Shown: positions 4,135 through 34,000 of the stretch, piece by piece
Layout: each line of letters begins with the position of its first letter
How positions within the stretch are numbered: the stretch's first letter is position 1
Virus record (IMG/VR): IMGVR_UViG_3300041809_003289
Location: 1 to 38,597 of that record
Length of the DNA: 38,597 bases
Reading direction: 5' to 3' (one strand)
Source: a virus
Notes under the pieces: generated by a model
Told to the model about the DNA's origin: nothing
Seen by the model: the letters and a program-made list of their open reading frames with translations, nothing else
The model's database searches: none
Program-made: the position numbers and the translations under genes

Positions 4135-4424
4135 ACATGAATGCCTTTAACTGGAAAGCATGGCGCATCGGGTTGTTGCTCGTGGCGCTGACTTCTTTGC
4201 TGACGGCCGGAGCCGGCTTGGTGGACCCGCAGATGAGCTGGCGCGGATTCGTGGCGGTCTTCTGCTCCTCGCTGCTGACGAGTCTGCCACTGTATCTCTA
4301 CCGGCATCCCGTACCCGGCCTGAATGACAGCAGTGCCGCAAGCGCATTGGCCCCTGGCGGCTCGCCAGCAGATTTTGCGGGCACGGTGCCCGCGAAAAAC
4401 GAAACAACAAACACAAAATCATGA
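4131..4424 (+). CDS. Two-TM holin-like membrane protein
   Basis: The 97-residue protein has two predicted membrane helices at about 12-32 (IGLLLVALTSLLTAGAGLV) and 38-58 (GFVAVFCSSLLTSLPLYLY), followed by a polar tail. Size and topology fit class II holins, which open the inner membrane for the lysin. A second ATG at 4137 is possible. The tail (residues 68-90) is encoded by two palindromic repeat elements, giving SALAPGGSPA and a GC-rich hairpin region, so the C-terminus is probably an insertion that the membrane protein tolerates. Both ends overlap neighbours by ATGA. The holin call rests on context. Confidence 0.55.
   Translation: MNMNAFNWKAWRIGLLLVALTSLLTAGAGLVDPQMSWRGFVAVFCSSLLTSLPLYLYRHPVPGLNDSSAASALAPGGSPADFAGTVPAKNETTNTKS
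4334..4393 (+). repeat. Tandem palindromic elements (type 1 plus hairpin) in holin-like gene
   Basis: A degenerate GCCGCAAGCGC is followed by ATTGGCCC and CTGGCG-GCT-CGCCAG (4354-4368, perfect 6-bp stem). Nine bases on, GCGGGCA-CGG-TGCCCGC (4377-4393) forms a 7-bp stem. The first is a member of the dispersed GCT-loop family and encodes SALAPGGSPA. Confidence 0.7.
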
Positions 4425-5008
4425 GAATAAAATGGAAATTGGGCCTCGCCGCTCTGGCGCTGGCATTCACCTTCAACCTCAACGCCCAGAGTACTGACGC
4501 CGGTACCGGCAATGGCGCCGCAGGCGCAATGGCACCCGGCGGCTTGCCGGTGACCAACAGCATCCCCAACTTCATCAACCAGGTGGCGGTGTGGGGCACG
4601 TCGTTCAACACCAACTACAGTTGGAGCACCGTCACGGTGCAGATTGAAGACGGCTACAAACAGGCCACCGGCTCGGGAGCTTCCGATTACCTGCGCGTGC
4701 AGTATGACAAAGGCAATTGGAACGCTGGCGTCGAGGGCGAGTTCCTGGGGATTGGCTCGCAGTTCACGGCGGTGGAAGCCGAGACGGGTTACGCGCTGAT
4801 TTCAAAGTACGACTTCAAGATCGAAGCCAACGTGCTCGCCGGCTACGACCGTGGCGTCAAGTCGTTTGAAATCGAGCCGGAATTGAAGGCCACCAAAATG
4901 CTCACGGTCAACACCTACGCGACAGCGGGCATCTCGATGCCGTGGCTGGCAAAACGAACGTTTGATGGCACGCCCCAATTTCGGGTGGGCGCGGGTTTTA
5001 CATTCTAG
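4421..5008 (+). CDS. Exported outer-membrane beta-barrel protein
   Basis: The 195-residue protein has a clear Sec signal peptide (MRIKWKLGLAALALAFTFNLNAQ, cleavage after LNA). After a linker that carries a palindromic-element peptide (GAMAPGGLPV, residues 35-44) come alternating amphipathic strands (TVTVQIEDGYKQAT, YLRVQYDKGNWNAGVEGEFL, FKIEANVLAGYDRG), and it ends RVGAGFTF. A terminal Phe on a last amphipathic strand is the BamA-recognition signature of outer-membrane barrels. About 140 residues would allow eight strands. Phage-encoded barrels can alter receptors or exclude superinfecting phages, and a lysis-time role is also possible given its place between holin-like and lysin-like genes. 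Function is inferred, location is well supported. ATGA overlap with the upstream gene. Confidence 0.65.
   Translation: MRIKWKLGLAALALAFTFNLNAQSTDAGTGNGAAGAMAPGGLPVTNSIPNFINQVAVWGTSFNTNYSWSTVTVQIEDGYKQATGSGASDYLRVQYDKGNWNAGVEGEFLGIGSQFTAVEAETGYALISKYDFKIEANVLAGYDRGVKSFEIEPELKATKMLTVNTYATAGISMPWLAKRTFDGTPQFRVGAGFTF
4515..4551 (+). repeat. Palindromic element, type 1 (two hairpins)
   Basis: GCGCC-GCA-GGCGC, then AATGGCAC, then CCGGCG-GCT-TGCCGG (one G.T pair). It encodes GAAGAMAPGGLPV at the mature N-terminus of the barrel protein. Confidence 0.75.
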
Positions 5009-5009
5009 T

Positions 5010-5028
5010 GTAACCCTTATATAAGTAT
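5010..5028 (+). promoter_or_regulatory. Promoter-like motif B (lysin-terminase block)
   Basis: GTAACCCTTATATAAGTAT lies directly against the ATG at 5030, with CTTATATAAG a perfect palindrome. It starts two bases after the stop of the barrel gene. If TTATAT is a -10, the transcript would be nearly leaderless. GGTTTTACA upstream is a poor match to the GGTTG box of the other copies. Confidence 0.5.
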
Positions 5029-5029
5029 C

Positions 5030-5548
5030 ATGTTTCCGCAACCGGTCATTGCCCTCTGGACGGTCCATCCCGGCGATCTGCTGGGAGAACCCATCACGTT
5101 CCTGACCCATGGTCCCGTAACGCACGCCGGCTGGATTCGTTCCGATGGCAGGACGGTTGCGGAAGCTTATCTGCCCCGCGTGCGCCTGCGGCCCATGCTC
5201 GACCCGGAAAAGCCGCTGGTGCGCCTGTTCACTTTGGAAGGCATGACGCCTGAACTGGCGGCCCGGCTCGAGCGGTTTCTGGATCTGGCCACCGACCCCA
5301 AGTTCGCGGCGGAATACAGCGTCAAGGGGCTGTTTGGCTTCGAGTTAAACATTCCGCCGGCTGACGAGCAGCATGTCTTTTGCTCGGAATGGGTGACCCA
5401 GGGCATCCGCAAGGTGGCGCCACAATTATTGCCGCTGGTGCGGTGCGAGGACTATCAAGTCAGTCCACGGGATTTGCTGATCTCGCCCCGGCTGATCGAA
5501 ATCTCCTGGTCAATGGCCTCAGCCGGCACGGCTGCTTCGCTGAACTAA
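5030..5548 (+). CDS. Permuted NlpC/P60 (YiiX/LRAT-type) cysteine hydrolase, candidate lysin
   Basis: The 172-residue protein carries the pattern of circularly permuted papain-fold enzymes: PGDLLGEPITFLTHGPVTHAGW with His32 as the likely catalytic histidine, and HVFCSEWV with Cys118 as the nucleophile (compare 'HaGi...yCSelV' in YiiX-like proteins). Members act as peptidases or amidases on peptidoglycan or lipids. Following holin-like and spanin-like genes it is the best candidate for the lysin, although a virion or maturation role is possible. There is no signal peptide. The C-terminus (SMASAGTAASLN) is made by a type 2 palindromic element. It is placed right after promoter-like motif B, and the terminase gene starts three bases after its stop. 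Confidence 0.6.
   Translation: MFPQPVIALWTVHPGDLLGEPITFLTHGPVTHAGWIRSDGRTVAEAYLPRVRLRPMLDPEKPLVRLFTLEGMTPELAARLERFLDLATDPKFAAEYSVKGLFGFELNIPPADEQHVFCSEWVTQGIRKVAPQLLPLVRCEDYQVSPRDLLISPRLIEISWSMASAGTAASLN
5512..5534 (+). repeat. Palindromic element, type 2
   Basis: AATGGCCT then CAGCCG-GCA-CGGCTG (5520-5534), a perfect 6-bp stem with GCA loop. It encodes MASAGTA at the end of the lysin-like protein. Confidence 0.75.
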
Positions 5549-6201: not shown

Positions 6202-7787
6202 GCAGCGCCTTGAGCAAGGCCGAAGTTGGTTTGCTGGCCGAATTTCTGGGAGACGAAATCGAGTCCGGCGACGTACCACCCGCGCCGCAGGCGCCATCGC
6301 AACCGGCAGCTTGCCGGTGGGTGCCGGATTTGAATCCGACGCAGATGGCGATCTTTAATGACCCGGCGGAAAACATCCTCGGACACGGGGAGAAAGGTTC
6401 GGGCAAAAGCATCGGGTTCGGACACAAGATCATCCGGCACGTTTACGAGAACGACAATGCCCTGGCGCTGGTGATTACACCCATGATTCGCACGGGCAAT
6501 GAAGGCATCGGCCACGACTTGGAAACCCTGATTTTGCCCGCTTGGAAGGAGGGGATTGACCTGGAATACACGCCCTGGCGGTTGGACCCCCTGACCAAGG
6601 ACCGGCACCGCTGGGTGCGCAACCGCTTTGGCGGCTGGTCAAAAATCCTGCTCATGTCGGTGCCGCACGCCAGCCAGGTCGAACAGCGCGTCAAAGGCCC
6701 GGCACCCAGCCTGGTCTATGTGGACGAAATAACGGAGTGCGACGGTGACAACTACTGGAAATTCACGGCCGCACAGCTTGGCCGCCGCCGCGGCATCTTG
6801 GGGCCGCAACAGTTCCTGGCCTCGTGCAACGCCAAAGGCCCCTCTCATTGGGTTTATCAGACGTTTTTCATCAATTGCGTTGACGAAAAAACCGGCCAGT
6901 GCGACCCGAAGTTTTCCGTTTACCATGTCCCGATTTCCGAGAATGTTCACCGGCTGCCGCCCGGCTATGTGGACCGGCTGCGTTCCCTGTTCAAGCATGA
7001 CCCGACCGAGTGGAAGCGGTTGATTGAGGGTGAATGGATCGACCAGCCGACCGGTGAAGGCATTTTCAAGGGGTACTACGTCGCGAACCTGCACCTGAAG
7101 GGTGATTTAATCAAGCGCACCGGGCTGGAACCCAAGCGCGGCTTTCCGATTTACGTCGGCTATGACATCGGCCAGGTCTGGCAGGGCGTGACCTTTTTGC
7201 AGTGCATCCCGACGGTCAACAAAACGGTGTGGATCATCTTTGACGAGTGTGACCATTTGAAGGAGCGGATTTTGTACAAGATGCTGGCCTGGGAAATCAT
7301 TGGCCGGATGCGTTACTGGCGCAAGCGGGTGTGTTATCCGTTCGCCTACTGTCACATCACTGATGAGAGCGCCATCAACCAGTGGCGGCCGGGCGGTGAG
7401 GGCGGCTATGACGCCTGGGAATTTGAACGGGAATTCAACAAGGTATTGGCCGAGTTCGCCCGGATCGGCTCGGACGGCCAGGTTGAACCCGCCCGGATGC
7501 TGGGTTGTCCCAAGGGTCCCGGCTCGGTGCCTGCCCGCGTCCGGCTGATCCAATCGAAGTTGTACCACGAGGAATTGTTCGTCTCGGCCCAATGCGAAAA
7601 CGCGGTCAACTGTTTCAATCATCTGGAATGCGACAAGGAAGATCCCACCAAACCGAAACGGTCCAAGTGGCTGCACAAGTTTGACAGTTTTAGTTATCCG
7701 ATCTTCAAGCTGGAAGTCGGCGGCGATCCGCGTTTGGTATTACCCACCGCCAGGGAAACATCAGTCCGTATCCTGCGAATGAAATAG
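6198..7787 (+). CDS. terL: Terminase large subunit
   Basis: The 529-residue packaging motor combines ATPase and nuclease. The ATPase half shows Walker A GEKGSGKS (64-71) and Walker B SLVYVDE (171-177, Asp176-Glu177). The nuclease half begins near IYVGYDIG (Asp323), with FDECDH and YCHITDES (Asp389) as further acidic metal-ligand candidates of the RNase H-like fold. It would cut concatemers and drive DNA into the prohead through the portal encoded downstream. Residues 26-42 (PPAPQAPSQPAACRWV) come from a palindromic element inserted in the N-terminal linker before the ATPase core. Length is normal. ATGA overlap with the small subunit. Confidence 0.9.
   Translation: MSSALSKAEVGLLAEFLGDEIESGDVPPAPQAPSQPAACRWVPDLNPTQMAIFNDPAENILGHGEKGSGKSIGFGHKIIRHVYENDNALALVITPMIRTGNEGIGHDLETLILPAWKEGIDLEYTPWRLDPLTKDRHRWVRNRFGGWSKILLMSVPHASQVEQRVKGPAPSLVYVDEITECDGDNYWKFTAAQLGRRRGILGPQQFLASCNAKGPSHWVYQTFFINCVDEKTGQCDPKFSVYHVPISENVHRLPPGYVDRLRSLFKHDPTEWKRLIEGEWIDQPTGEGIFKGYYVANLHLKGDLIKRTGLEPKRGFPIYVGYDIGQVWQGVTFLQCIPTVNKTVWIIFDECDHLKERILYKMLAWEIIGRMRYWRKRVCYPFAYCHITDESAINQWRPGGEGGYDAWEFEREFNKVLAEFARIGSDGQVEPARMLGCPKGPGSVPARVRLIQSKLYHEELFVSAQCENAVNCFNHLECDKEDPTKPKRSKWLHKFDSFSYPIFKLEVGGDPRLVLPTARETSVRILRMK
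6282..6318 (+). repeat. Palindromic element, type 1 (two hairpins)
   Basis: GCGCC-GCA-GGCGC is followed by CATCGCA and ACCGGCA-GCT-TGCCGGT, a perfect 7-bp stem. This is the one forward coding copy read in a different frame from the others (APQAPSQPAACR). Confidence 0.75.
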
Positions 7788-7796: not shown

Positions 7797-7834
7797 CCCT
7801 GGTTGAATTTATGTAAGCCTTATATGAGTATTAT
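7797..7834 (+). promoter_or_regulatory. Promoter-like motif C (portal block)
   Basis: CCCTGGTTGAA (7797-7807) is followed five bases later by GTAAGCCTTATATGAGTATT. The ATG is at 7838, so the leader would be very short. It has the same two-part layout as motifs A and D. Confidence 0.55.
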
Positions 7835-8155: not shown

Positions 8156-8171
8156 GTCCTTGCGGACGGCC
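8155..8171 (-). repeat. 17-base inverted repeat, left copy (type 4 element)
   Basis: GGTCCTTGCGGACGGCC contains GTCC-TTGC-GGAC. It is the exact reverse complement of 8472-8488, so the pair flanks the 8172-8498 gene. Confidence 0.75.
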
Positions 8172-8498
8172 ATGATGAATGCTGATGACACATTGATTGC
8201 GCCACGGGTGTTTTCACACTACCGGCAAATGGGCGTCATGCCGGGCTGGAGCGCGGAACGCTTCATCAAGCTCTGCCACCTGGCCAATCGCACACCGGAG
8301 GAAGTCGGCGCGTTTGCGGCGTTGATGCCCGCCGAGACGCGGTACTGGATGCGGCGGGGACACTTTACACCGCCGGTCAGCCTCCACTTCGCCGCCATCG
8401 AATCGACCTTGCGGTCGGCCAATTACGGCGACCCCATCGAACCCGTTGTGCCGCTGGACTTCCTTCATATTGGCCGTCCGCAAGGACCCGTCCGCTAG
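8172..8498 (+). CDS. Hypothetical protein flanked by inverted repeats
   Basis: The start at 8172 (ATG, or 8175) is chosen because the frame upstream is inside a palindromic repeat; this gives 108 residues (MMNADDTLIAPRVFSHYRQM). The protein has an Arg/Trp-containing, helix-rich middle (WSAERFIKLCHLANRTPEEV) that could be a small DNA-binding or adaptor fold. The text 'RTPEEVGAFAALMPAETRYW' resembles nothing I can name. The last residues (HIGRPQGPVR) are encoded by the right repeat copy. Six bases separate it from the portal gene. Confidence 0.6.
   Translation: MMNADDTLIAPRVFSHYRQMGVMPGWSAERFIKLCHLANRTPEEVGAFAALMPAETRYWMRRGHFTPPVSLHFAAIESTLRSANYGDPIEPVVPLDFLHIGRPQGPVR
8472..8488 (+). repeat. 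17-base inverted repeat, right copy (type 4 element)
   Basis: GGCCGTCCGCAAGGACC, identical to the copy at 18715-18731 and the reverse complement of 8155-8171. Hairpin GTCC-GCAA-GGAC with a GNRA-type loop; it encodes GRPQGP. Confidence 0.8.
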
Positions 8499-8503: not shown

Positions 8504-10927
8504 ATGATTGATTTCGACATCCTCGCTGAGTACGGCACCACGGACGAACGATTGCGGCAATTCTTCACCGCCGAGGAACCGACCACCGCGCAACAGGAGA
8601 AAATGACGCGGGAGGAACTGAGAGTGCGGCGGCGAGATGTAAAATTGCGCGCCAAGTTCCAGAAATGGATGCAGGCCATCCTATGGGAACACATCATCAA
8701 TTCGCTTCAGTCGCATTCCAAATACGCCGCCGTGGACATGGCATGGGACTCCTTCCCGGTCAATACGGCAGTCGTGCCCCTGATGCAGTTTGCCCAAGGG
8801 CGAATTGACAAGGCGCGGGCCGCCAAATGGCTGCGGGACACGCCCGATGGCGACAAATATGTCAAGGATGGCCCGGACGGCGAGTGTTCGATTGATCTGC
8901 CGAAATTCTTTGAGGTCAACATCAACCTGTTGCGCTCGATTTTGACCCGCCGCCGCGCCGCCCAAGTCGAAAAATATGACCGGCTCTGGCCCTATTTTAA
9001 ATATGAGCCCCGCGACCAGACCGAAGTGGGCAAGCTGCGGGCCGACATGGTCAGCCAGCGCATGGACATCATGGCCGACCAGTACGGCTACCGTCATTTC
9101 CAAAGCCAGGCGATTCTGCACATGCTCCTGTACGCCCGCAGCGTGGCCTTTCCACGCGCCTATTGGGAACGGGAAGTCAGTTTGGAGCGGGTGCCCGGCG
9201 ACGTGCCACGCGACGCCAAAGGCAAATTGCGCACCCAAACGCGAGTTTCCCGTGAGGGGTTGTCCTGGGTCCTGCCGCATCCCAGCCGCGTCTTTTACGA
9301 CAACAATTATCCGTTTACGGCATTGAACGAGGACAACGGCCCGGAATACGTCGGTTTCTGGGACGTGACGCGGTGGGGCGACGTGTCCAACAATGCGAAC
9401 TACTTTAATCGCAAGCAGGTCAGCTTCACCCAGGGTTTGTGTGATTTGTTCACGTCGTATTGGCCATTCTTCAACCAGTATTTTTCGACCATCATCCCAC
9501 CGACGCTCCCGGAACAGCCGGCTTATGCCACGGGCGCCAATGACATCAAGAACCGGGTGGGACTCTACACCGGCCAGATGGAACAGACCTCGGTGATCGT
9601 GTCGAACTTTTGGGTCAAGGTGCGTCCGCAAAATTGGGGTTGGGGCCGCTATCCGCATCCGGTCTGGGTCCATCTGAAGGTGGCCGGCGATGCCACCGTG
9701 GTGTATGCCAAAATCTGCCCCTCCTCGCCCGCCGCCGTGTTTTCCTACAACGAGAACGACGGCCGGATGTTCAATATTTCGATGGCGCACGAGCTGATGC
9801 CCTTCCAGGACCAGCTCACCAACCTGACCAGCCAGTTGCTGGAGACGATCAAGAAAGACCTGCTCAGCGTCGCCGTGCTCAACACGGACGTATTCCCCGA
9901 CGACGAAAAGGGGAAGAAAACACGGGCGGAATTCGAGGCTCTGCTTTCAGGGAAGGCCCAATACGCCACCATGCAAACCCTGGAGGTCAGCTTCCAGCAT
10001 TTGGCGCAATTGGGCATCAAGCCCGAGCAGGTCTTTACCGTGGTTCGGAGCACGCCGAACACCCAGATTGAGCAGATTTTCAAGGCCATCACCGAGTTGC
10101 TCAACATGGCCGACCGGCTGATGGTGATGTCGCAGCAGGAAGTCGGGCAGCAGATGTCCCACGAGGCCAGCGCCACCGAGTCGCACAACATCAGCAAGGC
10201 GACCGACTCCATCTATGATTTCATCTCCACCGGCTTGGACGAGGGCCGTTCGGCCATGAAACGCATCTGTTTTGAATCGCTGGTGGCCTGTGGCAGCGAC
10301 CAGGTGGAATTGACCGTGGCCAATCGTTATCCGCCCGGCGTCGTGAAACGCGCCGGGTTCACCGTCTCGGCCGACGCCTTCGCGGCTGGCAGCGGCTATT
10401 CGCGGATCACCGGCAACAAATCCTGCCTCGTGCATGATTACATCTTCACCTCACGGGATGGCGGCGACCGGCCCGTTGGGCAGCAGGCGGCGCAAGTACT
10501 GGTGCAGATGTTGCAAGCCATCGGCAGTTTGGAACAAAACATCCAGCAGGCCGTGGTGGGAGCGATGGGCAAAGAGAAGGTCTTTGAAATTCTCAACCAG
10601 ATTTTCCGCAGCATTGATGCCGGCGTGGACCTGAAACTGGAACTCAAGCCCGGTGAAAGCGACAACCTGCTGATTTCCCAGGACGAGCAGATCAAGCAGG
10701 GCCTGGCCCGGCTGGCGCAAATGGTCCAGCGCGACACCGCCGACATCACGCAGATCCACCAGGCGCTCAACGCCATCTTCGAGATCATCGGCAAGATGAA
10801 CCCGGCCGCCGGGCAACTCATCGCTGCCGAGCTGCAAAAGGCTGGCGGCAGTCCGCAAGGACAGCCAACCGGTGGCAATCCGCAAGGGCCGCCACCAGCA
10901 CAACCGCAAAATGTCACACTTAACTAA
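8504..10927 (+). CDS. Portal protein (podovirus type)
   Basis: The 807-residue protein, between terminase and scaffold/capsid genes, has the size and helix-rich mixed composition of large podovirus portals. The N-terminal part contains helices (LRVRRRDVKLRAKFQKWMQAI), the middle has a wing-like section (LSWVLPHPSRVFYDNNYPF) and the crown region is a Gln-rich amphipathic helix tract (about 640-790; LVQMLQAIGSLEQNIQQAVV). The dodecameric ring would form the DNA entry vertex and bind terminase and the adaptor. The C-terminal 30 residues (GGSPQGQPTGGNPQGPPPAQ) are made by two type 4 palindromic elements, probably a tolerated tail insertion. The next gene starts eight bases later. Confidence 0.8.
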   Translation: MIDFDILAEYGTTDERLRQFFTAEEPTTAQQEKMTREELRVRRRDVKLRAKFQKWMQAILWEHIINSLQSHSKYAAVDMAWDSFPVNTAVVPLMQFAQGRIDKARAAKWLRDTPDGDKYVKDGPDGECSIDLPKFFEVNINLLRSILTRRRAAQVEKYDRLWPYFKYEPRDQTEVGKLRADMVSQRMDIMADQYGYRHFQSQAILHMLLYARSVAFPRAYWEREVSLERVPGDVPRDAKGKLRTQTRVSREGLSWVLPHPSRVFYDNNYPFTALNEDNGPEYVGFWDVTRWGDVSNNANYFNRKQVSFTQGLCDLFTSYWPFFNQYFSTIIPPTLPEQPAYATGANDIKNRVGLYTGQMEQTSVIVSNFWVKVRPQNWGWGRYPHPVWVHLKVAGDATVVYAKICPSSPAAVFSYNENDGRMFNISMAHELMPFQDQLTNLTSQLLETIKKDLLSVAVLNTDVFPDDEKGKKTRAEFEALLSGKAQYATMQTLEVSFQHLAQLGIKPEQVFTVVRSTPNTQIEQIFKAITELLNMADRLMVMSQQEVGQQMSHEASATESHNISKATDSIYDFISTGLDEGRSAMKRICFESLVACGSDQVELTVANRYPPGVVKRAGFTVSADAFAAGSGYSRITGNKSCLVHDYIFTSRDGGDRPVGQQAAQVLVQMLQAIGSLEQNIQQAVVGAMGKEKVFEILNQIFRSIDAGVDLKLELKPGESDNLLISQDEQIKQGLARLAQMVQRDTADITQIHQALNAIFEIIGKMNPAAGQLIAAELQKAGGSPQGQPTGGNPQGPPPAQPQNVTLN
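10846..10896 (+). repeat. Two type 4 palindromic elements in portal tail
   Basis: GGC-A-GTCC-GCAA-GGAC-A-GCC (10846-10865) and GGTGGC...GCAA...GCCACC (10871-10896). They encode GGSPQGQ and GGNPQGP in the same frame. Confidence 0.7.
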
Positions 10928-10935: not shown

Positions 10936-12492
10936 ATGCCTGAAACAAACATCCCACCAACTCCAGCAACGTCCACGCCCGCGCCCGCGCCCGCTCCGGC
11001 CGCGCCGCCGGCTGAATCCACCCCTCCCGCGCCAGCCGCTACGCCGCCTCCCGATCCTCCGGCCGAACCAGTGGCCGTGACGCAGTCACCTGACGACGGC
11101 GTGCATGATTTGTTGATGGCCAACATCCTGAGTTCGCTTCGGCCTGAAGCTGAACCGGAGGTGAAACCCGCGATGGAACCAACCGCGCCGGTTGAGGCCA
11201 ATGCGCCTGCGGCGCCACCCGCACCCGCGCCGGTTGCGGACGATGCGCCAGCGCCCGTTCCGCCCCCCGCGCAGCCAGTGGCCGCGACGCCGTCACAGAA
11301 GAAGAAAAAGGTCCGTTCCATCGGCAAAGGCCATGCGGTGGTTGAGAACACCCCGCCGGTGGTGGCCGTGACGCAGTCACTTTCCGAACCGCCACAGTCT
11401 CCGGCCCAATTGCCCATGCCGGCTCCGGCATTGACGGAAGATCAGCGGGATGAACTGGCCGAGGCCGCGGTCGCCGAACGGTTGTTTGGCGACCGTTACC
11501 AGGGCCACACGGCGGCGCTCAAGAAATGGTATCAGGATTTTGATGCGCGTGCGGCCGCCCTGCGGGCGCAGAACCCGAATGTCACCGAGGACGATGACGA
11601 ATATCAGGCGTTGCTGGCCAGCAAACCGGCCATCAAGCAGACCGATTACAAGAAGGTGGCCAAAACAATGGCCACCGAGGCGGCGGTGCAGGAAACCAAC
11701 CAGCGGTTGGCACCCAAGCTCGACAAGATCGAGATGGACGCCCGGCGGGCTGAAATTCTGCCCGGCGTGCAGGATTTCTCCCAACGGGTGTTTGCCCACG
11801 GCGTCCGCACCCTCATCGAGGGCGACCCAAATTCGCCGTTGCACGTGCCGTTGAAGATGGCGGTTGAAAAGGGCATCGAAGCCGCGAGCGACGAATATCC
11901 CGAGGAAGCGACCATCTTGCGCGAGGTCATGGATGCGCAAAAGAAGCGCGTTCATGAATTCCTGCTGCTCAAGAACCGGGCCACGGCCTTTAACCCGAAA
12001 AGCGCCACGCACCAGGAAATCGCCAATCTCATCAATGAGGAAGGCCAAAACATGCTGAATTACGGCGTCAAAAACGGCGCGCAGCATCTGGTCAAAGACG
12101 GGCGTCAATTCCTGCCGCGCGACCAGTTCATCGCCCTCTTGGGCGGCGACCAGGCCGAAGGCCGCACCTTCAACCCGGCGCAATGGACCACGCAACGGTA
12201 CTGGACGTTCACTGACACAGCCATCGTGGACATCATGGCCATCCGCGCCAAACGCGAGGCGGAAAATCGCATTACTTACGAGCGCGACCGCGCCGGCAAG
12301 CTCGGTTACGTGAAGGCCCCGAAAAAATCGGTTGCAACTCCGCAACCGGCGACGCCGCCGGCGGCCATTACTCCCCCCAAGGCCACTCCCTCTGCCGCAC
12401 CGGGCGCGGTCCGGCCGATCAGGCCGCCAGTCGTGGATAATTCACCCATTCCCGTCGCTACGGTGGCGTCCCATCTGAAAGTCACGAAATAG
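10936..12492 (+). CDS. Scaffold-like protein with Pro/Ala-rich N-terminus
   Basis: The 518-residue protein sits directly between portal and major capsid genes, the usual place of the scaffold. Residues 1-160 are low-complexity Pro/Ala (APAPAPAAPPAEST) with one basic patch (SQKKKKVRSIGKGH). Residues 160-440 are charged and helical (KLDKIEMDARRAEILPGVQD; EGQNMLNYGVKNGAQHLV), and the C-terminus is again Pro-rich ending HLKVTK; a basic C-terminal helix or tail often binds the capsid protein. No protease motif is seen. Two type 3 palindromic elements encode VAVTQS in the N-terminal low-complexity region. Confidence 0.65.
   Translation: MPETNIPPTPATSTPAPAPAPAAPPAESTPPAPAATPPPDPPAEPVAVTQSPDDGVHDLLMANILSSLRPEAEPEVKPAMEPTAPVEANAPAAPPAPAPVADDAPAPVPPPAQPVAATPSQKKKKVRSIGKGHAVVENTPPVVAVTQSLSEPPQSPAQLPMPAPALTEDQRDELAEAAVAERLFGDRYQGHTAALKKWYQDFDARAAALRAQNPNVTEDDDEYQALLASKPAIKQTDYKKVAKTMATEAAVQETNQRLAPKLDKIEMDARRAEILPGVQDFSQRVFAHGVRTLIEGDPNSPLHVPLKMAVEKGIEAASDEYPEEATILREVMDAQKKRVHEFLLLKNRATAFNPKSATHQEIANLINEEGQNMLNYGVKNGAQHLVKDGRQFLPRDQFIALLGGDQAEGRTFNPAQWTTQRYWTFTDTAIVDIMAIRAKREAENRITYERDRAGKLGYVKAPKKSVATPQPATPPAAITPPKATPSAAPGAVRPIRPPVVDNSPIPVATVASHLKVTK
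11071..11089 (+). repeat. Palindromic element, type 3
   Basis: GTGGCC then GTGAC-GCA-GTCAC, 5-bp stem with GCA loop, encoding VAVTQS. A degenerate relative (GTGGCCGCGACGCCGTCAC) lies at about 11278-11296. Confidence 0.7.
11362..11380 (+). repeat. Palindromic element, type 3
   Basis: GTGGCC then GTGAC-GCA-GTCAC, identical to the core at 11071-11089 and in the same reading frame (VAVTQS). Confidence 0.75.
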
Positions 12493-12630: not shown

Positions 12631-14631
12631 ATGAACATCCTGCATCTCCTGACCGCCGTATTTGTCGCCGAGGGCTGCGCCAAAGCCTTCCTGCTTTTGA
12701 AGACGGGCGCGGCGCTGGGCATCCTCAATACCCCGGCCGGCGCGTCGCAAGGCCCCAATACCAATCCCAACGGGTTCAACGCCACCAACTGCGACCCGCG
12801 TTTGATCGCGGTGGACGACGCCATGTCGCTCACCCGGGCCAACATCACCGGCTGGAACAAGTCCGACATCGAATCCACCATGTTCAAGGAAGTCGGCCTG
12901 GACAAGATCATCAGCCAGACCAAGGAAGCCCGCATGGCCGGCGCCCGCCAGCGGACCCTCTCCGACCTCCTGCTCTCGCGGCATACGCCCCTCAAGATCG
13001 GCGGCAACGTCTCCGGCCAGTCCATCATTCAGCCGTTCCGGCTGGTGCCACGCCGCAACCGGGTCAACCCCGGCTACTTCCGCGTTTCGGTTGGCGTGTC
13101 GCTGGCCAACTTCACCGCTCAGGGCGGAACGGCGGGAACCAACACCAGTTTCAGCGGCATTTTCAACGGCACGATCACGCTTAACGCGGCGGTCGGCGCC
13201 TGCTGGGTGATGACGGTCAACAACGGCAGTATTGATGCTGATTCCTCGCCGTTCGCCAAGTCCCCCAACAACGTCCTGAAGAATCCCGAAAAGTATTTTC
13301 TGCCGCGCCATACGGTCATCAGCGAATTTGTCAGCGCCACGGACGGCTCCAAGATCACCAGCCAGTTGCGCATCGTGGACTCGGCGCCCGGACCGGATGC
13401 CAACCAGGCCTACGTGCTGGTGGTCCCCAGCTACACCTTCAAGGGCGATTCCACGATTCCGGCGGGAACGCTGATTCCCAACGGCCAGACACCCGGGCAA
13501 TTCACCGGCGTGTTTGGCAACCTCAGCCTCGCCCAAAACGGCTGGTTTGAATCCGCCACCAACGCGGCCAAGGCCGCCGTGCAGCCGACGACCGGTATCG
13601 TGACCATCGGCGCCAATGCCGTCAGCGACTTCCAGCAATACGGCAACAGCCTGCCCGGCATCAATGACTACGGCCTGGTCGAATACTGGCCGCAGACGCA
13701 TCGCTGGGTGCACCAATACAACGATGAATATGTGCGCGCCCTGGAGGCCAGCACCACGAGCGAAGGTTTGAAGAAATTCCGGCTCCTGCCATTGGCCAAG
13801 CTCCGCGCCCAGCAGGAGAAAATGACGGATGATTTTAAATTCAACACCTTTTTCTTCGGGCAGGCCGAGAACGAGAACCAGACCACGAGCTTGTGGACCA
13901 ACCTGCCCTATGTCACCGACCCGGCCTGGGCGGCCTCCGGCCAGACGGGCACGCTGTTGATTGACTACAACACCCGCACGCTGGGCATCCGCACCCAGAT
14001 TGCCGCCTGCGGCAACGTCTATGACGCGCAAGGATCGCCGCTGGATCTCGATGCGCTGTTCGAGGCGGGCTACTACGTCAAACGCGAGCGCGAAGGCGAG
14101 TCGGACATTGAAGTCACCGATATCGACATCATGACCGATCAGCGGTTCACGCGCCCGCTCCTGCGGCAGTTGATGACGAAATATTACAAGGCCAAGTACG
14201 GTCTGGACAGCGTGACGATGTTCATGCAGTCGGGCAAAAAGATCGAGCACGAGGGCCAGGTGGTTTTCGAGTACGACAGCTATGAACTGCCCGATTACGG
14301 CTACACCCTGCACGTCTTCAGCAACCAGTATTTTGACGACAAGGTGGCGCAATTTCAGACCGGCCAGAAGTCGGCGGGCCGCGCCATCTGGATGATCGAC
14401 TGGTCGGACGTGGCGGTCAACGTCATCAAAAGCATGTCGGTCAACCGGACCAACAACCTCGTGTCGGATGTGTACAAGTTCGTCATGCAACAGAACGTCC
14501 AGCACATCCAGATGAACAGCTTCAAATTCGAGGTGGCCTTGGGCAACACCAACCGGCATCGCCTGATCGAAAACTATTCCGATGGCTGCGCCAAACTGAC
14601 CGTGCCCGGCTGCGACCTCTCCGCCCGGTGA
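12631..14631 (+). CDS. Major capsid protein (probable)
   Basis: The 666-residue protein follows portal and scaffold-like genes. A helical start (LLTAVFVAEGCAKAFLLLKTG) leads to an E-loop-like segment with RRNRVNPGYFRVSVGV and mixed alpha/beta parts, consistent with an HK97-type fold with a large insertion: residues 150-270 are beta-rich (TNTSFSGIFNGTITLNAAVG). The basic-acidic balance and the C-terminal helix-strand pattern (MSVNRTNNLVSDVYKFVMQQ) fit a shell protein. It is longer than most podovirus capsid proteins (350-450), so an inserted surface domain is likely. The TGA stop falls inside a palindromic element. The call depends on gene order; no direct motif exists for this family. Confidence 0.75.
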   Translation: MNILHLLTAVFVAEGCAKAFLLLKTGAALGILNTPAGASQGPNTNPNGFNATNCDPRLIAVDDAMSLTRANITGWNKSDIESTMFKEVGLDKIISQTKEARMAGARQRTLSDLLLSRHTPLKIGGNVSGQSIIQPFRLVPRRNRVNPGYFRVSVGVSLANFTAQGGTAGTNTSFSGIFNGTITLNAAVGACWVMTVNNGSIDADSSPFAKSPNNVLKNPEKYFLPRHTVISEFVSATDGSKITSQLRIVDSAPGPDANQAYVLVVPSYTFKGDSTIPAGTLIPNGQTPGQFTGVFGNLSLAQNGWFESATNAAKAAVQPTTGIVTIGANAVSDFQQYGNSLPGINDYGLVEYWPQTHRWVHQYNDEYVRALEASTTSEGLKKFRLLPLAKLRAQQEKMTDDFKFNTFFFGQAENENQTTSLWTNLPYVTDPAWAASGQTGTLLIDYNTRTLGIRTQIAACGNVYDAQGSPLDLDALFEAGYYVKREREGESDIEVTDIDIMTDQRFTRPLLRQLMTKYYKAKYGLDSVTMFMQSGKKIEHEGQVVFEYDSYELPDYGYTLHVFSNQYFDDKVAQFQTGQKSAGRAIWMIDWSDVAVNVIKSMSVNRTNNLVSDVYKFVMQQNVQHIQMNSFKFEVALGNTNRHRLIENYSDGCAKLTVPGCDLSAR

Positions 14632-14668
14632 GCCACCGGGGGCCAATTCCACCCGCTGAAGCGGGTGG
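14624..14668 (-). repeat. Composite palindromic element spanning the capsid stop codon
   Basis: Read on the minus strand: CCACCCGC-TTCA-GCGGGTGG (perfect 8-bp stem), AATTGGCC, CCCGGTG-GCT-CACCGGG (perfect 7-bp stem). The plus-strand TGA stop of the capsid gene is at 14629-14631, inside the second stem. It could also help to end transcription. Confidence 0.75.
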
Positions 14669-15242: not shown

Positions 15243-15266
15243 CCGGCCGGCGAGCCGCCGGGGGCC
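15241..15266 (-). repeat. Palindromic element, type 1, at stop codon
   Basis: Minus strand: TGGCCCC then CCGGCG-GCT-CGCCGG (15247-15261, perfect 6-bp stem). It starts within the TAG stop of the exported protein gene. Confidence 0.75.
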
Positions 15267-15276
15267 ACTATTCAAA

Positions 15277-15761: not shown

Positions 15762-16583
15762 ATGGCCCTGGACACCACCAACAAGTATTGGACCTGGCAG
15801 CAGTTCAACGCCAAGGTGGACGAACTGTGTCCGCTGGAATCCAAGCGCCTGTTCGGCCAGATGTGCGCAGCCAGCACAATGGCCCCAGCCGGCACGGCTG
15901 CCACGCCTCTCTGGAATTATAGTGATGGCAGTTCGGTCTATTACAGGGACCAAATCCGGCAGGCCGTTCTGGACTTGCAGAACTTCATCCCGGAATTCTG
16001 CAAGAACCACGAAACCATCTATTATCCGCAGGATTTCGCGGTGGACGGCATGGCCAGTGTCGGTGCGCTGCCGCCGATGGCCAAGGTCACGGATGCCTGG
16101 TACTACAGCGTGACCAAACAGCGCCGGGTGCCGGTCGTGGAAGCGGCGTGGGAACAGCGTTTCACTCTGGCGGCTCTCCATCCCCGACACATCAACTCCA
16201 ACAACTTCAATGGCACGGCGATTTGCCAGACAGCGGCCTCGCTGGAAATGATTGCCACTTTCAACGAAGTGGTTTCCACCACGGGGCAATATGTCGGAGT
16301 CATGGCGATCAGCCCCGGGCACGAGCGGTTTTATCTGCATCCGCGGATTGAAAACGAATGGGTCTTTTCCCTGTTTTGGAACGGGCACAAGCTAGATTTC
16401 CGGGATGCCGAACAGGTGCCCTTTGAAGAGGAAGCCGCGCAGGCCGTGGCGTTGTTCGTGCGCGCCGCCTTCCTTGGTTACGTCGAGCGCAATCTGGCCG
16501 ATGCCGCCCAAGTCACGCTGCAATACAACGCCAAACGCAGCAATCTTTATCTCCGCTGCAAATCCAAGGGGTTTCTCCCGTGA
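15762..16583 (+). CDS. Adaptor / head-to-tail connector-like protein
   Basis: The 273-residue protein has an N-terminal helical segment (WTWQQFNAKVDELCPLESKR), a central beta section (VTDAWYYSVTKQRRVPVVEA) and a C-terminal helical part (FEEEAAQAVALFVRAAFLGY) ending in a strand (YNAKRSNLYLRCKS). Position two genes upstream of the nozzle and after the capsid gene matches the T7 gp11 adaptor, which binds portal to nozzle; a phage of this type needs such a protein and no other gene fits better. Residues 38-46 (TMAPAGTAA) come from a type 2 palindromic element. The stop overlaps the next GTG start (GTGA). Confidence 0.5.
   Translation: MALDTTNKYWTWQQFNAKVDELCPLESKRLFGQMCAASTMAPAGTAATPLWNYSDGSSVYYRDQIRQAVLDLQNFIPEFCKNHETIYYPQDFAVDGMASVGALPPMAKVTDAWYYSVTKQRRVPVVEAAWEQRFTLAALHPRHINSNNFNGTAICQTAASLEMIATFNEVVSTTGQYVGVMAISPGHERFYLHPRIENEWVFSLFWNGHKLDFRDAEQVPFEEEAAQAVALFVRAAFLGYVERNLADAAQVTLQYNAKRSNLYLRCKSKGFLP
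15878..15900 (+). repeat. Palindromic element, type 2
   Basis: AATGGCCC then CAGCCG-GCA-CGGCTG (15886-15900), encoding MAPAGTA in the adaptor-like protein. Confidence 0.75.
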
Positions 16584-16984
16584 ACGATTGGAGCAATCAA
16601 TCCTATATTCCCTCCCAAGTGCCGGCACCCATTCCGCCGTGGGCGCGTCCGGTGCAATCGCCGATGGTCCAGACCTGTATCGGCGCCGACACCATTGATC
16701 TTGGGCCGGACGTGACCTATTTGAATCAGGTTCAACCCAGCGCTGACGGCAACCCGTACCCGTTGACGCTGCCCAACGGCAATTACCTGCGGCAAATGAA
16801 GCGCATCCTCGTGCTGGGTTCGAACATTCCCAACACGGCCGAGTTTCAACTGTTCGGGCAATTCGCCAACGCCAGCAGTTTTCTGTTCAACAACGCCGCC
16901 ACCGAGGCGGTGCTCGAATGGGATTCGACCTGCTGGCACCTGATCGGCGGATCGGCACAGCCATCTACTACCGCCGCCACCTAG
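16580..16984 (+). CDS. Small hypothetical virion-block protein
   Basis: The 134-residue protein starts at a GTG overlapping the upstream stop (GTGA). The N-terminal third is Pro-rich (SQVPAPIPPWARPVQSP). The rest alternates short strands (CIGADTIDLGPDVTYL; MKRILVLGSNIPNTAEFQLF; AVLEWDSTCWHLIGG) and looks like a small jelly-roll or beta-sandwich such as phage fibre and head-decoration modules; the WHLIGG ending is common in tail-fibre beta-domains. No family is named with confidence. Seventeen bases separate it from the next, exported, protein. Confidence 0.6.
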   Translation: MNDWSNQSYIPSQVPAPIPPWARPVQSPMVQTCIGADTIDLGPDVTYLNQVQPSADGNPYPLTLPNGNYLRQMKRILVLGSNIPNTAEFQLFGQFANASSFLFNNAATEAVLEWDSTCWHLIGGSAQPSTTAAT

Positions 16985-17001
16985 CGGTGGGGCCACCATT
17001 T

Positions 17002-20967: not shown

Positions 20968-20993
20968 GTAACTGCGTTACGGTCACTATTTCT

Positions 20994-22160: not shown

Positions 22161-22179
22161 GTGGCTGTGACGCAGTCGC
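22161..22179 (+). repeat. Palindromic element, type 3, intergenic
   Basis: GTGGCT then GTGAC-GCA-GTCGC (one G.T pair), just after the fibre stop and directly before the CTGGTTG box of motif F. Confidence 0.65.
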
Positions 22180-24207: not shown

Positions 24208-25275
24208 ATGCGAAATGTAAATGCAAAATGCTTCCGCGCCGAAGGCGCAATGGCCCCCGGTGGCTCACCGGTGAGCCAAAAATTTTTCATCACCGGTTTG
24301 CCCCGCAGCCGCACCGCCTGGCTGGCCAACCTGCTTTCCTACGGCGACAAATCCTTTTGCTTTCACGAAGCCGTCCGGCGGGCAACGGACTTGGAAGCGC
24401 AGTTCAAATTGTATGACAGTGTGACGCATGATTTGGTTGGCGATTCGTCCTGCGGTTTGTTGCTCAACTGGCAGGAAGTCTCCGCCCGATATCCTGACGC
24501 CAGGTGGGTGATTATCCGGCGCGATCCACAGCAAGTGCTTGAATCCAGCCGCCGTGCCTTTCCCTGGTTAAAGGTGACAGCAGACGCCATCCGCGACCTG
24601 GCCGGTCGTTTGCGTGAAGCCCGCAACGCGTTGCCGAATTTACTGTCCGTCGAGTTCGATGAGCTGGATGAGAAGGTGCCCGAAATTCTGGACCACATCG
24701 GGCTGCAAATAAATCCGCTGCGCCTCGGGCAGTGCCTTGAAAACAAAGTCGAGATTGCCGCGCACAAGGCTGTCGCTTCGCCCGCATGTCCTGATTCGCC
24801 CCTGCGGTTCAAAATGGTGGAGTTGATGAGGGACTATAAGCCCGGTCCCGGCAGCGCGGAGGTTTTGTCCGAACAATACCGCGCCCTGTTGCGTGAAATG
24901 TGCGGCAAACGTGAGGATGCCTATTGGTTTCTCAACGAACTCCTCAACGTCTGGCTGGTGTGGGACCATTTCCGGGACCACGACGTACAAAACCCGGCCG
25001 ATGTGGAGGCCGCCTTCACTTCGATGCTCCTGCACTGGCCCAACAATACGTTTGTGTGCGAGTGGGGCCGGTTCCTGACGCCCACCATCAGCGCCGCCAT
25101 TACCGCCAACAAGGCAGATGGCCAAGGCATTAAGGGGTGGGATGTCTATACCGAAATTCCGATGGCGGTGGCGACCGTCCTGGGCGGCCATGCATTGGCT
25201 GAGAAATACTCCAAACCCATCCGCGACCTGGTGGCGCAAATCAAGGCGGCGGACGACAGAGAGGACGTGGTATAA
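24208..25275 (+). CDS. Sulfotransferase-domain protein with C-terminal helical phage domain
   Basis: The 355-residue protein has both hallmarks of PAPS-dependent sulfotransferases: a 5'-phosphosulfate loop, FFITGLPRSRTAWLANLL (LPRSRTAWL at 31-39), and a 3'-phosphate-binding segment, WVIIRRDPQQVLESSRRA (Arg105, Ser113-114). Residues 1-24 are an extension made by a palindromic element (EGAMAPGGSPVSQ); the fold should begin at KFFITG. From about 200 the protein changes to a helical domain with YWFLNELLNVWLVWDHFRDH (Asp/His-rich 253-259), which resembles helical proteins of unknown role near phage tail genes. It could modify surface glycans or virion proteins; substrate unknown. It lies between a fibre and the first ejection protein and ends two bases before the next gene. 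Confidence 0.7.
   Translation: MRNVNAKCFRAEGAMAPGGSPVSQKFFITGLPRSRTAWLANLLSYGDKSFCFHEAVRRATDLEAQFKLYDSVTHDLVGDSSCGLLLNWQEVSARYPDARWVIIRRDPQQVLESSRRAFPWLKVTADAIRDLAGRLREARNALPNLLSVEFDELDEKVPEILDHIGLQINPLRLGQCLENKVEIAAHKAVASPACPDSPLRFKMVELMRDYKPGPGSAEVLSEQYRALLREMCGKREDAYWFLNELLNVWLVWDHFRDHDVQNPADVEAAFTSMLLHWPNNTFVCEWGRFLTPTISAAITANKADGQGIKGWDVYTEIPMAVATVLGGHALAEKYSKPIRDLVAQIKAADDREDVV
24236..24271 (+). repeat. Palindromic element, type 1 (two hairpins)
   Basis: GCGCC-GAA-GGCGC, AATGGCCC, then CCGGTG-GCT-CACCGG (24257-24271). Inserted after codon 9 of the sulfotransferase-domain gene, encoding EGAMAPGGSPV. Confidence 0.8.
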
Positions 25276-25277: not shown

Positions 25278-26435
25278 ATGGCGGTTGTTGCCGGACTGAT
25301 TACGGCGGGCGTGGTTGGCGCGGCGGGCGCGGCGGCGAGTGCTTATGGTGCCTCGGCCTCGGCCGATGCCCAGCAGCAGGCGGCCCAGACCGCCGCCAAC
25401 TCGCAGAATCAGGCCAACAAACTCAATTACCAGATGTATGAGGAGGCGCACGGCTCAACGGGCCATGCCGTGCTGCCGATCTACATGGGCAATTTCGAGC
25501 AGAACCTGGGCACCGACCTGACCAATGCCTACCAGCAGTCTTCGGTCCCGCTGACAACGTTTCAGGCGGCCACCGGCAAGCTCGCCCCGGCCGAACAAGG
25601 CGCCATTGACACCACCAACGGCATTTTCAACGGCGGCATCACCCGGACGATGCTGGCCAACAATGCGCCGGTGCAGGCGCAACGGCTGGTCCAAGCCAAC
25701 AACCAGGTCAATCTGGCGCGTTCGTCTTCACTCGATGCCTTGCACAAAACGCTCAATTCGATTGACGCCCAGCAGGCGGCCCGGGGTTATGTCGGCGATT
25801 CCTACGCCAACCGGCTCCTGCAATTTCAGGCCGGCAAAACCGGAGGCGATGCCGTGGCCTCGGCCATGAGCAATGTGGATGCTGCGCAACTGCAAAACAC
25901 GCAGGATGTCGCCAACATCAAGAACTATGGCAATGTGACCCTGCCGCTCCAAAACCTGAACACACCTTACACCCAGGCGCAGCAATCCGGTCAGTTCGCC
26001 TTTCTCCCGCAGGATGAATGGCTGCAAAGCATCAGCCAGCGAATGCAGCCGCTGAACATGCTGAAGATTGGTTACACCGGTCCGTTCCAATATCAGCCTC
26101 TGCCCACTCCCGGTCCGGGAGCGTATTCGGGCACCGCCAATGTGTTGTCGTCGCTGGGCGGAACCATGACCGGCAACAGCGGGGCGGCGCTCAATTATTA
26201 TCTCCAAAGCCAGCAGCAGCAGAATTTGCTCAACGCTATGCAAACAAACACCGCCAACACCGCAGCGATCACCAACTACGACATGATCGGCAATCCTCTG
26301 GCCGGCTATAACGCCAGTCTGGGTGCCGCAGCCGGTACGGGCCAGTTGGCCGCCGGCGGCGCGCCGGTGGATTGGTCCAGCGCGTTGAATTCTGGCAGCG
26401 ATGCCTTTGCCGGAATCACTCCCACCACCTTCTAA
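25278..26435 (+). CDS. Ejection protein A (T7 gp14-like internal virion protein)
   Basis: The 385-residue protein opens with a Gly/Ala-rich membrane-prone helix (LITAGVVGAAGAAASAYGAS, residues 7-26), followed by Gln/Ala-rich amphipathic helices (SADAQQQAAQTAANSQNQAN) and a disordered C-terminal half. This matches gp14-type inner-core proteins that are injected and form a channel in the outer membrane. It is the first of three such genes in the T7 order (14, 15, 16). GAGAGGA shortly upstream, within the end of the sulfotransferase gene, is a rare clear ribosome binding site in this block. Confidence 0.65.
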   Translation: MAVVAGLITAGVVGAAGAAASAYGASASADAQQQAAQTAANSQNQANKLNYQMYEEAHGSTGHAVLPIYMGNFEQNLGTDLTNAYQQSSVPLTTFQAATGKLAPAEQGAIDTTNGIFNGGITRTMLANNAPVQAQRLVQANNQVNLARSSSLDALHKTLNSIDAQQAARGYVGDSYANRLLQFQAGKTGGDAVASAMSNVDAAQLQNTQDVANIKNYGNVTLPLQNLNTPYTQAQQSGQFAFLPQDEWLQSISQRMQPLNMLKIGYTGPFQYQPLPTPGPGAYSGTANVLSSLGGTMTGNSGAALNYYLQSQQQQNLLNAMQTNTANTAAITNYDMIGNPLAGYNASLGAAAGTGQLAAGGAPVDWSSALNSGSDAFAGITPTTF

Positions 26436-31000: not shown

Positions 31001-34000
31001 CCTCTTTCATGAGGCCGGCCATGCCGTTTTTGCCAGGCTGCCGCCTGAAGTGCAGGCCGCCGCATTGCGCGCCATCCGCAGGTTCACTGACGAGACGCTG
31101 GGCATCAGCGGGTTCAAAGAGGCGGTTGCTGCCAGTGTGCCTTTGCGTGAACGTCCCTGGGTGGAACAGGAAGGCCGCCTGGTCGAAAGCGTGGGCCGCA
31201 AGCTGGTCGAGCAAGGATTTAATCCGAATGACGCAGCCGGCTGGGCACAACGAATTTGGCGGGCCATCAGCGACGTGGCGCACGGGGTTTACCTCGCGCT
31301 GGCAAAGCTCGCGGGTTATCCGCCGAGCGATGAGCGGGCGCTCGCCTACTTTCAGCACCGGCTGCAAATGGCGTTGCGGGGTGAAAAGCCGATGACCCTG
31401 CTCAATTTTTTGGGCGGGCCGCGCCTGAAGCTCCCCGATTGGTCCGTAGCCGGGGTCGCCAATAGACGTTTTTCCGGCATCAATCCCGTCACCAATCCAC
31501 GGCGATATTTGGAAACCCGTGAAGGCGCACCGGTTGGCATCGCGGCCTTGAACGATTTCAAACAGGTCGGTTTGGACATCATTCACCAGTGGGACATTAC
31601 CGGCAATGTCGCCGGGCTGCCGGACGAACAGGTGGCCAGACAATTTCTCAAGCTTCCCGAAAGCGTGGGTGGTTCGGATATGTTTGTGAACGGTGCGACT
31701 CCCGCCAGCCTGGTTGCCGATGCCGCCAAACAGCACGGCGGTGGCGTGTCGCCACTGACCACTATCAAAGACCTTCAAAGTGATGTGGCCCGGCAACGCG
31801 CACAGGCTGTCACCCACCGGTTGCTGGCAGAAACCAAAGCAGTCATGGACGGCGCGGCATTGGAAGCCCACACGGAATGGAACCGCGGTGTTCACCAGTT
31901 GGAGCAGAACAACAATAAATTGGTCAGGCTGACCAAGGATTTTGTGGACGTGGATTACATGAGCGCCGTCAGCAAAAAGGCCATGGTGGACCTGATCGCC
32001 GACGAGGCCCGTGTCGTGCGCGGTGTGCGCGAATTCTCCGACCAGGAAGGCGCCATTGGACAGGTGTTGCGGCAACTCGATCAAACCATTCAGAAGGGGG
32101 ACCTGCCCGCGCCGTACAAGACGGCCCTCGATGAAGTATATCGTATCTTGGTTGATCCCCATGGTGGCGGTCCGCAAGGACTCAACTTCACGGAGATTTT
32201 GCATCACATCGGTACGATGGATATTGATTGGAAGATGCCGACCGGTGTTTTGAAGGAGGCATTACGTCAGCACTATCTTGCCAATCAAAGCCCCTATCTA
32301 AAACCGTTGCTGGGCGATAATGCGAAGTCACGGGCTTTGCTGGCGACGACGATCTCCTTTGCCAAATCCAACAGCCACATGGTGGACCTGCTGGCCCTGC
32401 GCGCCGACAAGAGCGATGAGCGGGCACAGGCCGGCAAGATGCTTCAGGATCTGCTTAATGCCAGCGAGCACAATCTCGGTGACTTGCGGCAGCGTGTGGT
32501 GGACACCTTCAAGAACCTGAAAATGCGGGACCGGATGTTGCGGATCGCCGACAAGATCGCCGAACTGCGAAAGAACAATTACGACCTGATGGCGGCCAAT
32601 GAGCGCAACAAGGCGATGGTGGATTTTCACAAGGATGCCTTCACTCCCCTGATGACGGACCGGATGAACGCCATCGAGAAAGACCTGGGCATTGTGATGA
32701 ACAATTTTGAGGTCTATCACGGCGCGCCGTTGTCGATCCCCACTGCCCGCGATGCCGCCCCGGACAAATTCGTCACGCGCCAGTTGAGTTTGCGCAGTGA
32801 CATCGGCAAGCGCGGCGAACGTCCGACGCCGACGCCGGAAGTGACCGGCTGGCTCAATGCCATGCGCGATTGGTTGGAGCATAAAGAAAACACCAAGTAC
32901 GGAGCCAAATACAATGAAGTGGCCGATGTAGTGGCCAAATTGGAAAGTCATTTCGTGGCGGACATGCATCTGAACTTGCAGGGTTCTGCGGCCACGCGGT
33001 TGTTGGGACCATTGCAGGAGAAGTGTAATCAGGCGGGCACACCTTCAGCCCGGCTGGCTGGCCAGGCTTTCAACCGTTATTCGTCATTGCTGCGCGCCAA
33101 AACCCGCGATGTGGTCCAGCGCGGCACAGCCTTTGCCGCGGCCTTGAACGATGCGCGTATGGCGGCGGGTTATCCGGCCGCCAGCGAAAAGACGTTTTGG
33201 GATAATGTCATCAGCCCGGCGTTGCACGATCTGGAACAGAACGGCGAACGCATTTGGGCTTCGGGCGCAACTCGTGAGGAGCGCATCAACCGGGCAGTGT
33301 CCCAGGCGCTGCAATACATGAACCAAAATGGCAAGTTGCCCGCCAGGGCTAACGTGGCGGTGGAAAAGATGTTGCGGCTGCATGTGGCCAACTGCGACTC
33401 GATGGTGACCAACGGGAAGGAGCTTGGCCTAAAGGTGCTCGATCAGGGCGGTGCGAGCCGCACGGGCCATGATTACCGGATTTACCGGAGCGTCTTGGGC
33501 GAAGCGCCAACCACGCTGCCCCGCGCCTTGACCGACATTGCGGCCAATTTTTACCGGGAGCACATGAGCGCCTGGGGCGGGACCAGTTTGAAGGCAAAGG
33601 AAGTGGCGCCCAGGTACCAGCAGGACCCGAATCAATTGCGGCAATTCCTGCAATCGCGGTTTACTCCCCAAGTGTGGGATTGGTTCATGCGTTCGCTGGC
33701 GTACAATGACCGGCCGCATTTCTACGCACCGAATGAAGGGGGGCTTGCGCCTCTTGCCACCAGGGAAAATGTCATCAATGCCTACGAGACGGCGCAGGGC
33801 GATGTCGTGCGGTTTGCGGAAAACCTCGCGGTGGCTCACGGCTTCAAACCGGATGGCGCATTCGTAGGTGAAACGCTCGACACCATCCAGAATTTTCACA
33901 ACCTGCTGCGCACGATGGCCGGCGATGAAGCCGAGGCCGTGCGCGGCGGCTCGCCCGCCCCCAAGCGTTACATCGTGGACGCCCGGCATGTGGAGGCCGC

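Follow-up and report, generated by a model that had tools for sequence, protein, structure and literature searches.

The DNA studied here, the window, is the whole of the 38,597-base IMG/VR virus record IMGVR_UViG_3300041809_003289, whose host field is empty. Its genes include that of a terminase, an extended array of late genes on the plus strand and an open reading frame (ORF) of 2,756 residues. Scattered through unrelated genes, in both orientations as an initial annotation had said, lies a family of very short hairpins. A unit measures 18-22 nt and consists of a TGGC(C) tag, or foot, and a stem of 4-7 bp whose loop is GCA, GCT or GCAA. Foot and loop lie at a distance that is constant within each class, 9 nt when the loop is GCAA and 10-12 nt when it is GCA or GCT. 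The annotation had counted about 20 copies between 4334 and 32181, mostly behind an (A)ATGGCC-type leader and with fixed loops. The dispersed family is real, but a relaxed inventory puts it at about 32 copies, a few of them weak, over 4102-33469 (Table 1); the leader is better described as TGGC(C) following A, T or G, and a few copies close with GCG, GCTA or GCGT. Five copies are double (starting at 4333, 4515, 6282, 11180 on the minus strand, and 24236), with GCGCC-GCA-GGCGC or a near form followed by (A)TTGGCC or AATGGCC and then the main hairpin, over a length of about 38 nt.

An excess over dinucleotide shuffles, on which the claim of a family depended, is present: 11 hairpins have an AGC/GCT triloop and a stem of at least 6 bp where 0.37 are expected, and 12 have a GCA/TGC triloop and a stem of at least 5 bp where 2.3 are expected. 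We also scanned with a strict pattern, in which a TGGC foot is followed by 0-3 nt, a perfect stem and a GCA, GCT or GCAA loop. This pattern occurs once in the 163 kb of four syntenic relatives, and other tetranucleotides put in place of TGGC gave 0-4 copies in the real window sequence. With TGGC, the window holds 22 copies (14 on the plus and 8 on the minus strand), as opposed to 3.3 ± 1.1 when codons are shuffled synonymously gene by gene (maximum 7 in 60 shuffles), and the hairpins are therefore explained by neither composition nor the encoded proteins.

Proteins of the syntenic relatives are 50-79% identical in amino acid sequence to those of the window. Compared with three of these relatives, which lack hairpins, window proteins have extra residues at the hairpins: 18 near 15880, 9 near 20160, 6 at 33451 and 3 at 18714. 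Because these peptides are absent from the homologous proteins, the window hairpins are insertions; relatives do not encode the same peptides with non-palindromic codons, an outcome that the annotation had considered. Reading frames remain open through the copies, which are most simply read as translated, and splicing or bypass was set aside.

Host genomes contain near-identical empty sites, which bears out the mobility that had been proposed. Empty and filled forms of a site were found in L186, L155 and L096 (filled) and L097 and L230 (empty), in L162 and L193 versus L205, in L188 versus L246, within one contig in L183, and at window position 33451 versus L014; L186 and L097 are 95% identical over 93 nt. 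The gain at such pairs is the foot and hairpin only (18-21 nt in hosts), target duplication is absent, and 2-6 nt are often replaced. In genome G076, about 15 copies of NGTGGCCGTCCGCAAGGAC lie directly between TTCTCCC-like and CTCYGCG sequence, where NGTGGCCGTCCGCAAGGAC directly precedes the repeat CTCYGCGCCTCYGCG; other copies of the repeat in the same loci are hairpin-free. This repeat, with its TTCTCC leader, is dispersed in G076 (L271-L290) and has received the hairpin repeatedly. Several Verrucomicrobia bins (L186, L155, L096) have a hairpin at one and the same position of a ubiD-like gene, accompanied by frame shifts. These host genes look damaged, and that of L155 seems to be joined to an adenosylhomocysteinase-like fragment.

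The arms covary, as first reported from the window. Across eight genomes, the free positions of TGGCCGTNCGCAAGNAC are complementary, as C-G or G-C, in 83 of 87 copies, a tally made by eye on copies that had been collected irrespective of whether these positions pair. Across relatives, the stop codon of one prophage capsid gene (few orthologues came from viral contigs, enough from a genome search) is the site of at least six different arm sets, all fully paired: CTAAC-TGC-GTTAG, GTAAC-TGC-GTTAC, CTGAC-TGC-GTCAG, GGCAC-TWGC-GTGCC (also with a TGGC loop), AGTGCG-TGC-CGCACT and CCCAG-TGC-CTGGG. Most are followed by GGCCA, the foot on the opposite strand. A change of the stop codon from TAA to TGA is paralleled by a change in the opposite arm, and the hairpin is absent from some relatives, one of them with a 91% identical protein. 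These comparisons of sequences support the view that the fold is kept while the stem changes. In L320-L349, hairpins after the prophage capsid gene are paired, yet their stems are wholly different between close relatives; these are probable terminators.

The family is lineage-specific and patchy, and it is densest in phages and prophages. Pattern scans of viral contigs gave 15 copies in 40 kb of G006 and 5 in 4 kb of L054, with others in G020 and elsewhere, and the same stems (GTCC-GCAA-GGAC, GTGCG, GTGGC) recur in phages and at loci that are unrelated to one another. Matches to GTGGCCGTCCGCAAGGAC in a scan of GTDB species genomes fell mainly in Limisphaerales / Verrucomicrobia subdivision 3; scattered single matches outside these groups look like chance, and the VAVRKD capsid peptide in L036/L047 gives an identical 17-mer that is a chance database match. 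Eight of these genomes have 1-20 copies of TGGCCGTNCGCAAGNAC each and none of its reversed form. Within one order, 16 of 58 genomes were positive, with 0-28 copies per genome and 0 in reversed-pattern controls. Because the family occurs there, the host of the window phage is probably a Verrucomicrobia bacterium of the Limisphaerales (Verrucomicrobiota).

Where copies crowd together in host genomes the region is a prophage, as its portal (E=1e-125), terminase and head genes show. One G046 contig stays at background over 400 kb, and 15 kb of another, adjoining portal, head and terminase genes, has 11 copies; similar clusters are found in G044, G038 and G052. The GCA and GCT classes are near background in the chromosomal stretches read and the GCAA class is present in chromosomes, a host-versus-phage comparison that is biased because the collection query used the GCAA class. 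Phage and prophage copies lie mostly inside predicted ORFs, structural genes among them, and the host copies of G076 are mostly intergenic. Most phages and prophages hold nearly all their copies on a single strand, as a rule the one opposite the main gene strand (G052:C70 10/10, G046:C87 11/11, G044:C59 6/6, G038:C52 6/6, G006 14/15), although several of these prophages are related and genes were called by a simple script. Gene strands in G020 are mixed, which makes its entry in a tally of strands rough and the p-value of that tally unreliable.

We favor, with moderate confidence, the interpretation that these are very small non-autonomous mobile DNA hairpins of Limisphaerales phages, prophages and hosts and of some related Verrucomicrobia. 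A hairpin would copy into new places in phage and prophage DNA, and the GCAA class into host chromosomes as well. By analogy with TnpA-REP, which reads repetitive extragenic palindromic (REP) sequences, the unit may be recognized and inserted as a folded single strand, with a trans-acting enzyme reading tag, stem and loop. Phage DNA, single-stranded in replication, would be a favored target, and copies would persist where a linker, protein end or intergenic gap is extended in frame. The mover is probably an enzyme that acts on single strands and in trans. The window and hairpin-rich phages of other groups have almost no genes in common, which points to a trans-acting factor; a phage-encoded driver gene common to hairpin-rich phages was rejected, as almost none is shared. 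We speculate, more tentatively, that the family is a third class of tagged hairpin beside the GTAG and CGTC classes, with phages as its main reservoir and vehicle, and that a host-encoded hairpin-reading enzyme writes the 18-22 nt units into replicating single-stranded phage DNA, seeding protein linkers and carrying hairpins between hosts. REP-like repeats have so far been known as chromosomal and mostly intergenic. If our interpretation is right, REP-like mobility reaches phages and contributes to change in their proteins, and the many pairs of empty and filled sites offer material for the question, posed for REPs as well, of how a singlet hairpin moves.

Several observations weigh against mobility of this kind. 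At none of 52 Y1 transposase (Y1_Tnp) loci in 21 host genomes did TGGCC hairpins flank the gene, only isolated background-level matches being seen. As single-stranded DNA, the short GCAA and GTGAC classes are predicted to form folds of only modest stability. The divergence of the relatives leaves junctions in the window approximate, host sequences are mostly metagenome bins, and some host insertions shift the frame. The mixed orientation in the window is an exception to the one-strand bias of most phages and prophages.

Comparison with known systems places the family near REPs. The annotation had drawn an analogy with REP/BIME elements, which is apt for anatomy and behavior, but a linked REP-associated tyrosine transposase (RAYT) as driver was sought and not found beside TGGCC hairpins at the 52 loci. 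Like GTAG REP/REPINs with a RAYT (e.g., SMAGs and the GTAG-20 of Opitutus terrae), the family has a short unpaired tag by a small hairpin, occurs in dispersed copies and in Verrucomicrobia, falls into subfamilies whose stem changes are complementary, and inserts into genes in frame. It differs in its TGGC(C) tag, in a unit of only 18-22 nt, in being dense and mostly intragenic in phages and prophages, where GTAG REPs are mostly extragenic, and in having no adjoining RAYT that we could find; in size it falls at the small end of the 20-40 nt dispersed palindromes of that class, the double forms reaching about 38 nt. CGTC REPs, which include RPE-4, RPE-6 and dRS3, are also tagged hairpins for which no dedicated transposase is known, and some of them are intragenic, but they have a CGTC tag, 8-9 bp stems, 4-5 nt loops and mainly head-head dimers, and the TGGCC hairpins do not fit that description. 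Rickettsia RPE-1 shares the palindromic in-frame insertions in unrelated proteins found here, and differs in being longer and in belonging to another host lineage. The subterminal hairpins of IS200/IS605 resemble the family in pairing a hairpin with a guide tetranucleotide, in single-strand insertion without target duplication and in strand bias, whereas TGGCC hairpins have neither a left and right end pair nor a transposon body. Its anatomy matches the published description of TnpA-REP substrates (PMC6006769). On the features tested, we regard the family as REP-like in its working and outside both the GTAG and CGTC families. No description of it was found in the open-licence literature searched, the nearest published case being the REPs of O. 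terrae, GTGG-tagged and in many copies intragenic (PMC3733652).

A competing idea, which we consider rather unlikely, is that the hairpins are GTAG-type REPs whose tag has degenerated to GTGG and that an ordinary RAYT moves them, as for O. terrae GTAG-20. The GTAG-20 repeats are mostly GTGG-tagged, and no other genome surveyed has as many intragenic GTAG REPs as O. terrae (PMC3733652). TnpA-REP subclass 2.5, with its tag 1-2 nt from a short stem and a narrow sum of foot and stem (PMC6006769), would suit the unit, Y1_Tnp genes are present in 20 of 20 hosts tested, and the host GCAA class reads GTGGCC in 138 of 144 distinct copies. In the window, however, G precedes TGG in only 7 of 22 copies; the constant part is TGGCC rather than GTGG, and neither GTAG nor GT[AG]G describes the tag. 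Many host Y1 transposase or RAYT genes are, moreover, flanked by paired hairpins of their own, whose tag is often ATAG or similar; TGGCC hairpins flank none of the 52. Among the types flanking Y1 genes is ATAG-CCCGGCGT-TTTA-ACGCCGGG (L199-L210, L251-L270, L291-L310).

Strong covariation, a consistent strand in many phages and prophages, and the capsid-stop copy in many prophages could also be expected if the hairpins served the phage as RNA or DNA, for instance as protein-binding, antitermination or promoter sites, and had been placed by selection and not by mobility. Phage N4 virion RNA polymerase, for example, uses hairpin promoters; we set that reading aside, as copies lie inside late genes at positions that are not conserved. 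Functional hairpins in general appear improbable to us: positions are not conserved among syntenic relatives, which almost lack the strict pattern, hairpin-rich phages share almost no genes, and host copies sit inside other repeats. Both orientations occur in the window, no T tract follows the stem in window contexts as it would in an intrinsic terminator, and in Rfam no hairpin scored above the gathering threshold. Still less probable is an enzyme-free origin in which template-switch (quasi-palindrome) mutation and gene conversion make and spread the palindromes. It would account for the perfection of the arms, for the many different stems and for the exchange of stems at an orthologous site whose foot and flank stay the same, but not for the constant foot and loop, the same stems at unrelated loci and phages or the reuse of a single target repeat in G076. 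Chance, through GC-rich codons of repeated peptides, does account for some database matches, the VAVRKD 17-mer among them; as a source of the family it is hardly credible, being already contradicted by the synonymous shuffles and by relatives without the peptides.

Table 1. Hairpin copies found in the window, written as foot-arm-loop-arm.
Position	Strand	Hairpin	Remarks
4102..4122	+	TGGC-AGGCCGA-GCT-TCGGCCT	
4333..4368	+	GTGCCGCAAGCGC then ATTGGCCC-CTGGCG-GCT-CGCCAG	double
4515..4550	+	GCGCC-GCA-GGCGC then AATGGCAC-CCGGCG-GCT-TGCCGG	double; one G/T
5514..5534	+	TGGCCT-CAGCCG-GCA-CGGCTG	C-terminus of ORF 5030-5548, longer than in G003
6282..6318	+	GCGCC-GCA-GGCGC / ACCGGCA-GCT-TGCCGGT	double; foot mutated to ATCGC; terminase N-terminal linker
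8156..8172	-	TGGCC-GTCC-GCAA-GGAC	
8404..8421	-	TGGC-CGACC-GCAA-GGTCG	
8471..8487	+	TGGCC-GTCC-GCAA-GGAC	C-terminal extension, absent from relatives
10843..10862	+	GTCC-GCAA-GGAC	foot GGCGGCA; C-terminal tail of ORF 8504-10927
11072..11089	+	TGGCC-GTGAC-GCA-GTCAC	
11179..11216	-	GGCGCCGCAGGCGC then ATTGGCC-TCAACCG-GCG-CGGTTGG	double
11363..11380	+	TGGCC-GTGAC-GCA-GTCAC	
12345..12367	-	TGGCC-GCCGGCG-GCGT-CGCCGGT	variant loop, weaker
14624..14645	-	TGGCC-CCCGGTG-GCT-CACCGGG	
15247..15267	-	TGGCCC-CCGGCG-GCT-CGCCGG	
15880..15900	+	TGGCCC-CAGCCG-GCA-CGGCTG	within 18-residue insertion, absent from G001-G003
16977..16995	-	TGGCC-CCACC-GCTA-GGTGG	variant loop
18714..18730	+	TGGCC-GTCC-GCAA-GGAC	net insertion of 3 residues
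19322..19342	+	TGGCCC-CCACCG-GCA-CGGTGG	
19456..19474	-	TGGCCGCC-ACCG-GCA-CGGT	weak; relatives keep peptide; possibly chance
20160..20180	-	TGGCCA-GTCGGC-GCT-GCCGAC	within 9-residue insertion, absent from G001-G003
20774..20794	-	TGGCCC-CTGGCG-GCT-CGCCAG	
20968..20986	-	TGACC-GTAAC-GCA-GTTAC	foot mutated
21027..21049	+	AAGGCA-ACCGGCA-GCT-TGCCGGT	foot mutated
21520..21540	+	TGGCCT-CAACCG-GCA-CGGTTG	
21631..21651	+	TGGCCG-CAGCCG-GCA-CGGTTG	one G/T
22162..22179	+	TGGCT-GTGAC-GCA-GTCGC	one mismatch to GTGAC class
24236..24271	+	GCGCCGAAGGCGC then AATGGCCC-CCGGTG-GCT-CACCGG	double; N-terminus of sulfotransferase-like ORF 24208-25275
26347..26368	+	TGGCC-GCCGGCG-GCG-CGCCGGT	variant loop
30469..30486	+	TGGCC-AAGCC-GCA-GGCTT	
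32165..32182	+	TGGC-GGTCC-GCAA-GGACT	more residues than in G001 and G003
33451..33469	-	TGGCCC-GTGCG-GCT-CGCAC	6-residue insertion; empty site readable in L014

The window has further features of its own. Two different tyrosine integrase genes lie one near each end of the record (656-1849 and 37421-38530). The sulfotransferase-family ORF 24208-25275, with the double hairpin near its N-terminus, stands within the late-gene array, and the syntenic relatives yielded no homologue of it. Between genes, the AT-rich motif GTAANCCTTATATRAGTRTNAT occurs three times (5010-5031, 7813-7834 and 15295-15316) where 0 are expected, just upstream of the ORFs at 5030, 7838 and 15327, and looks like a phage-specific promoter.

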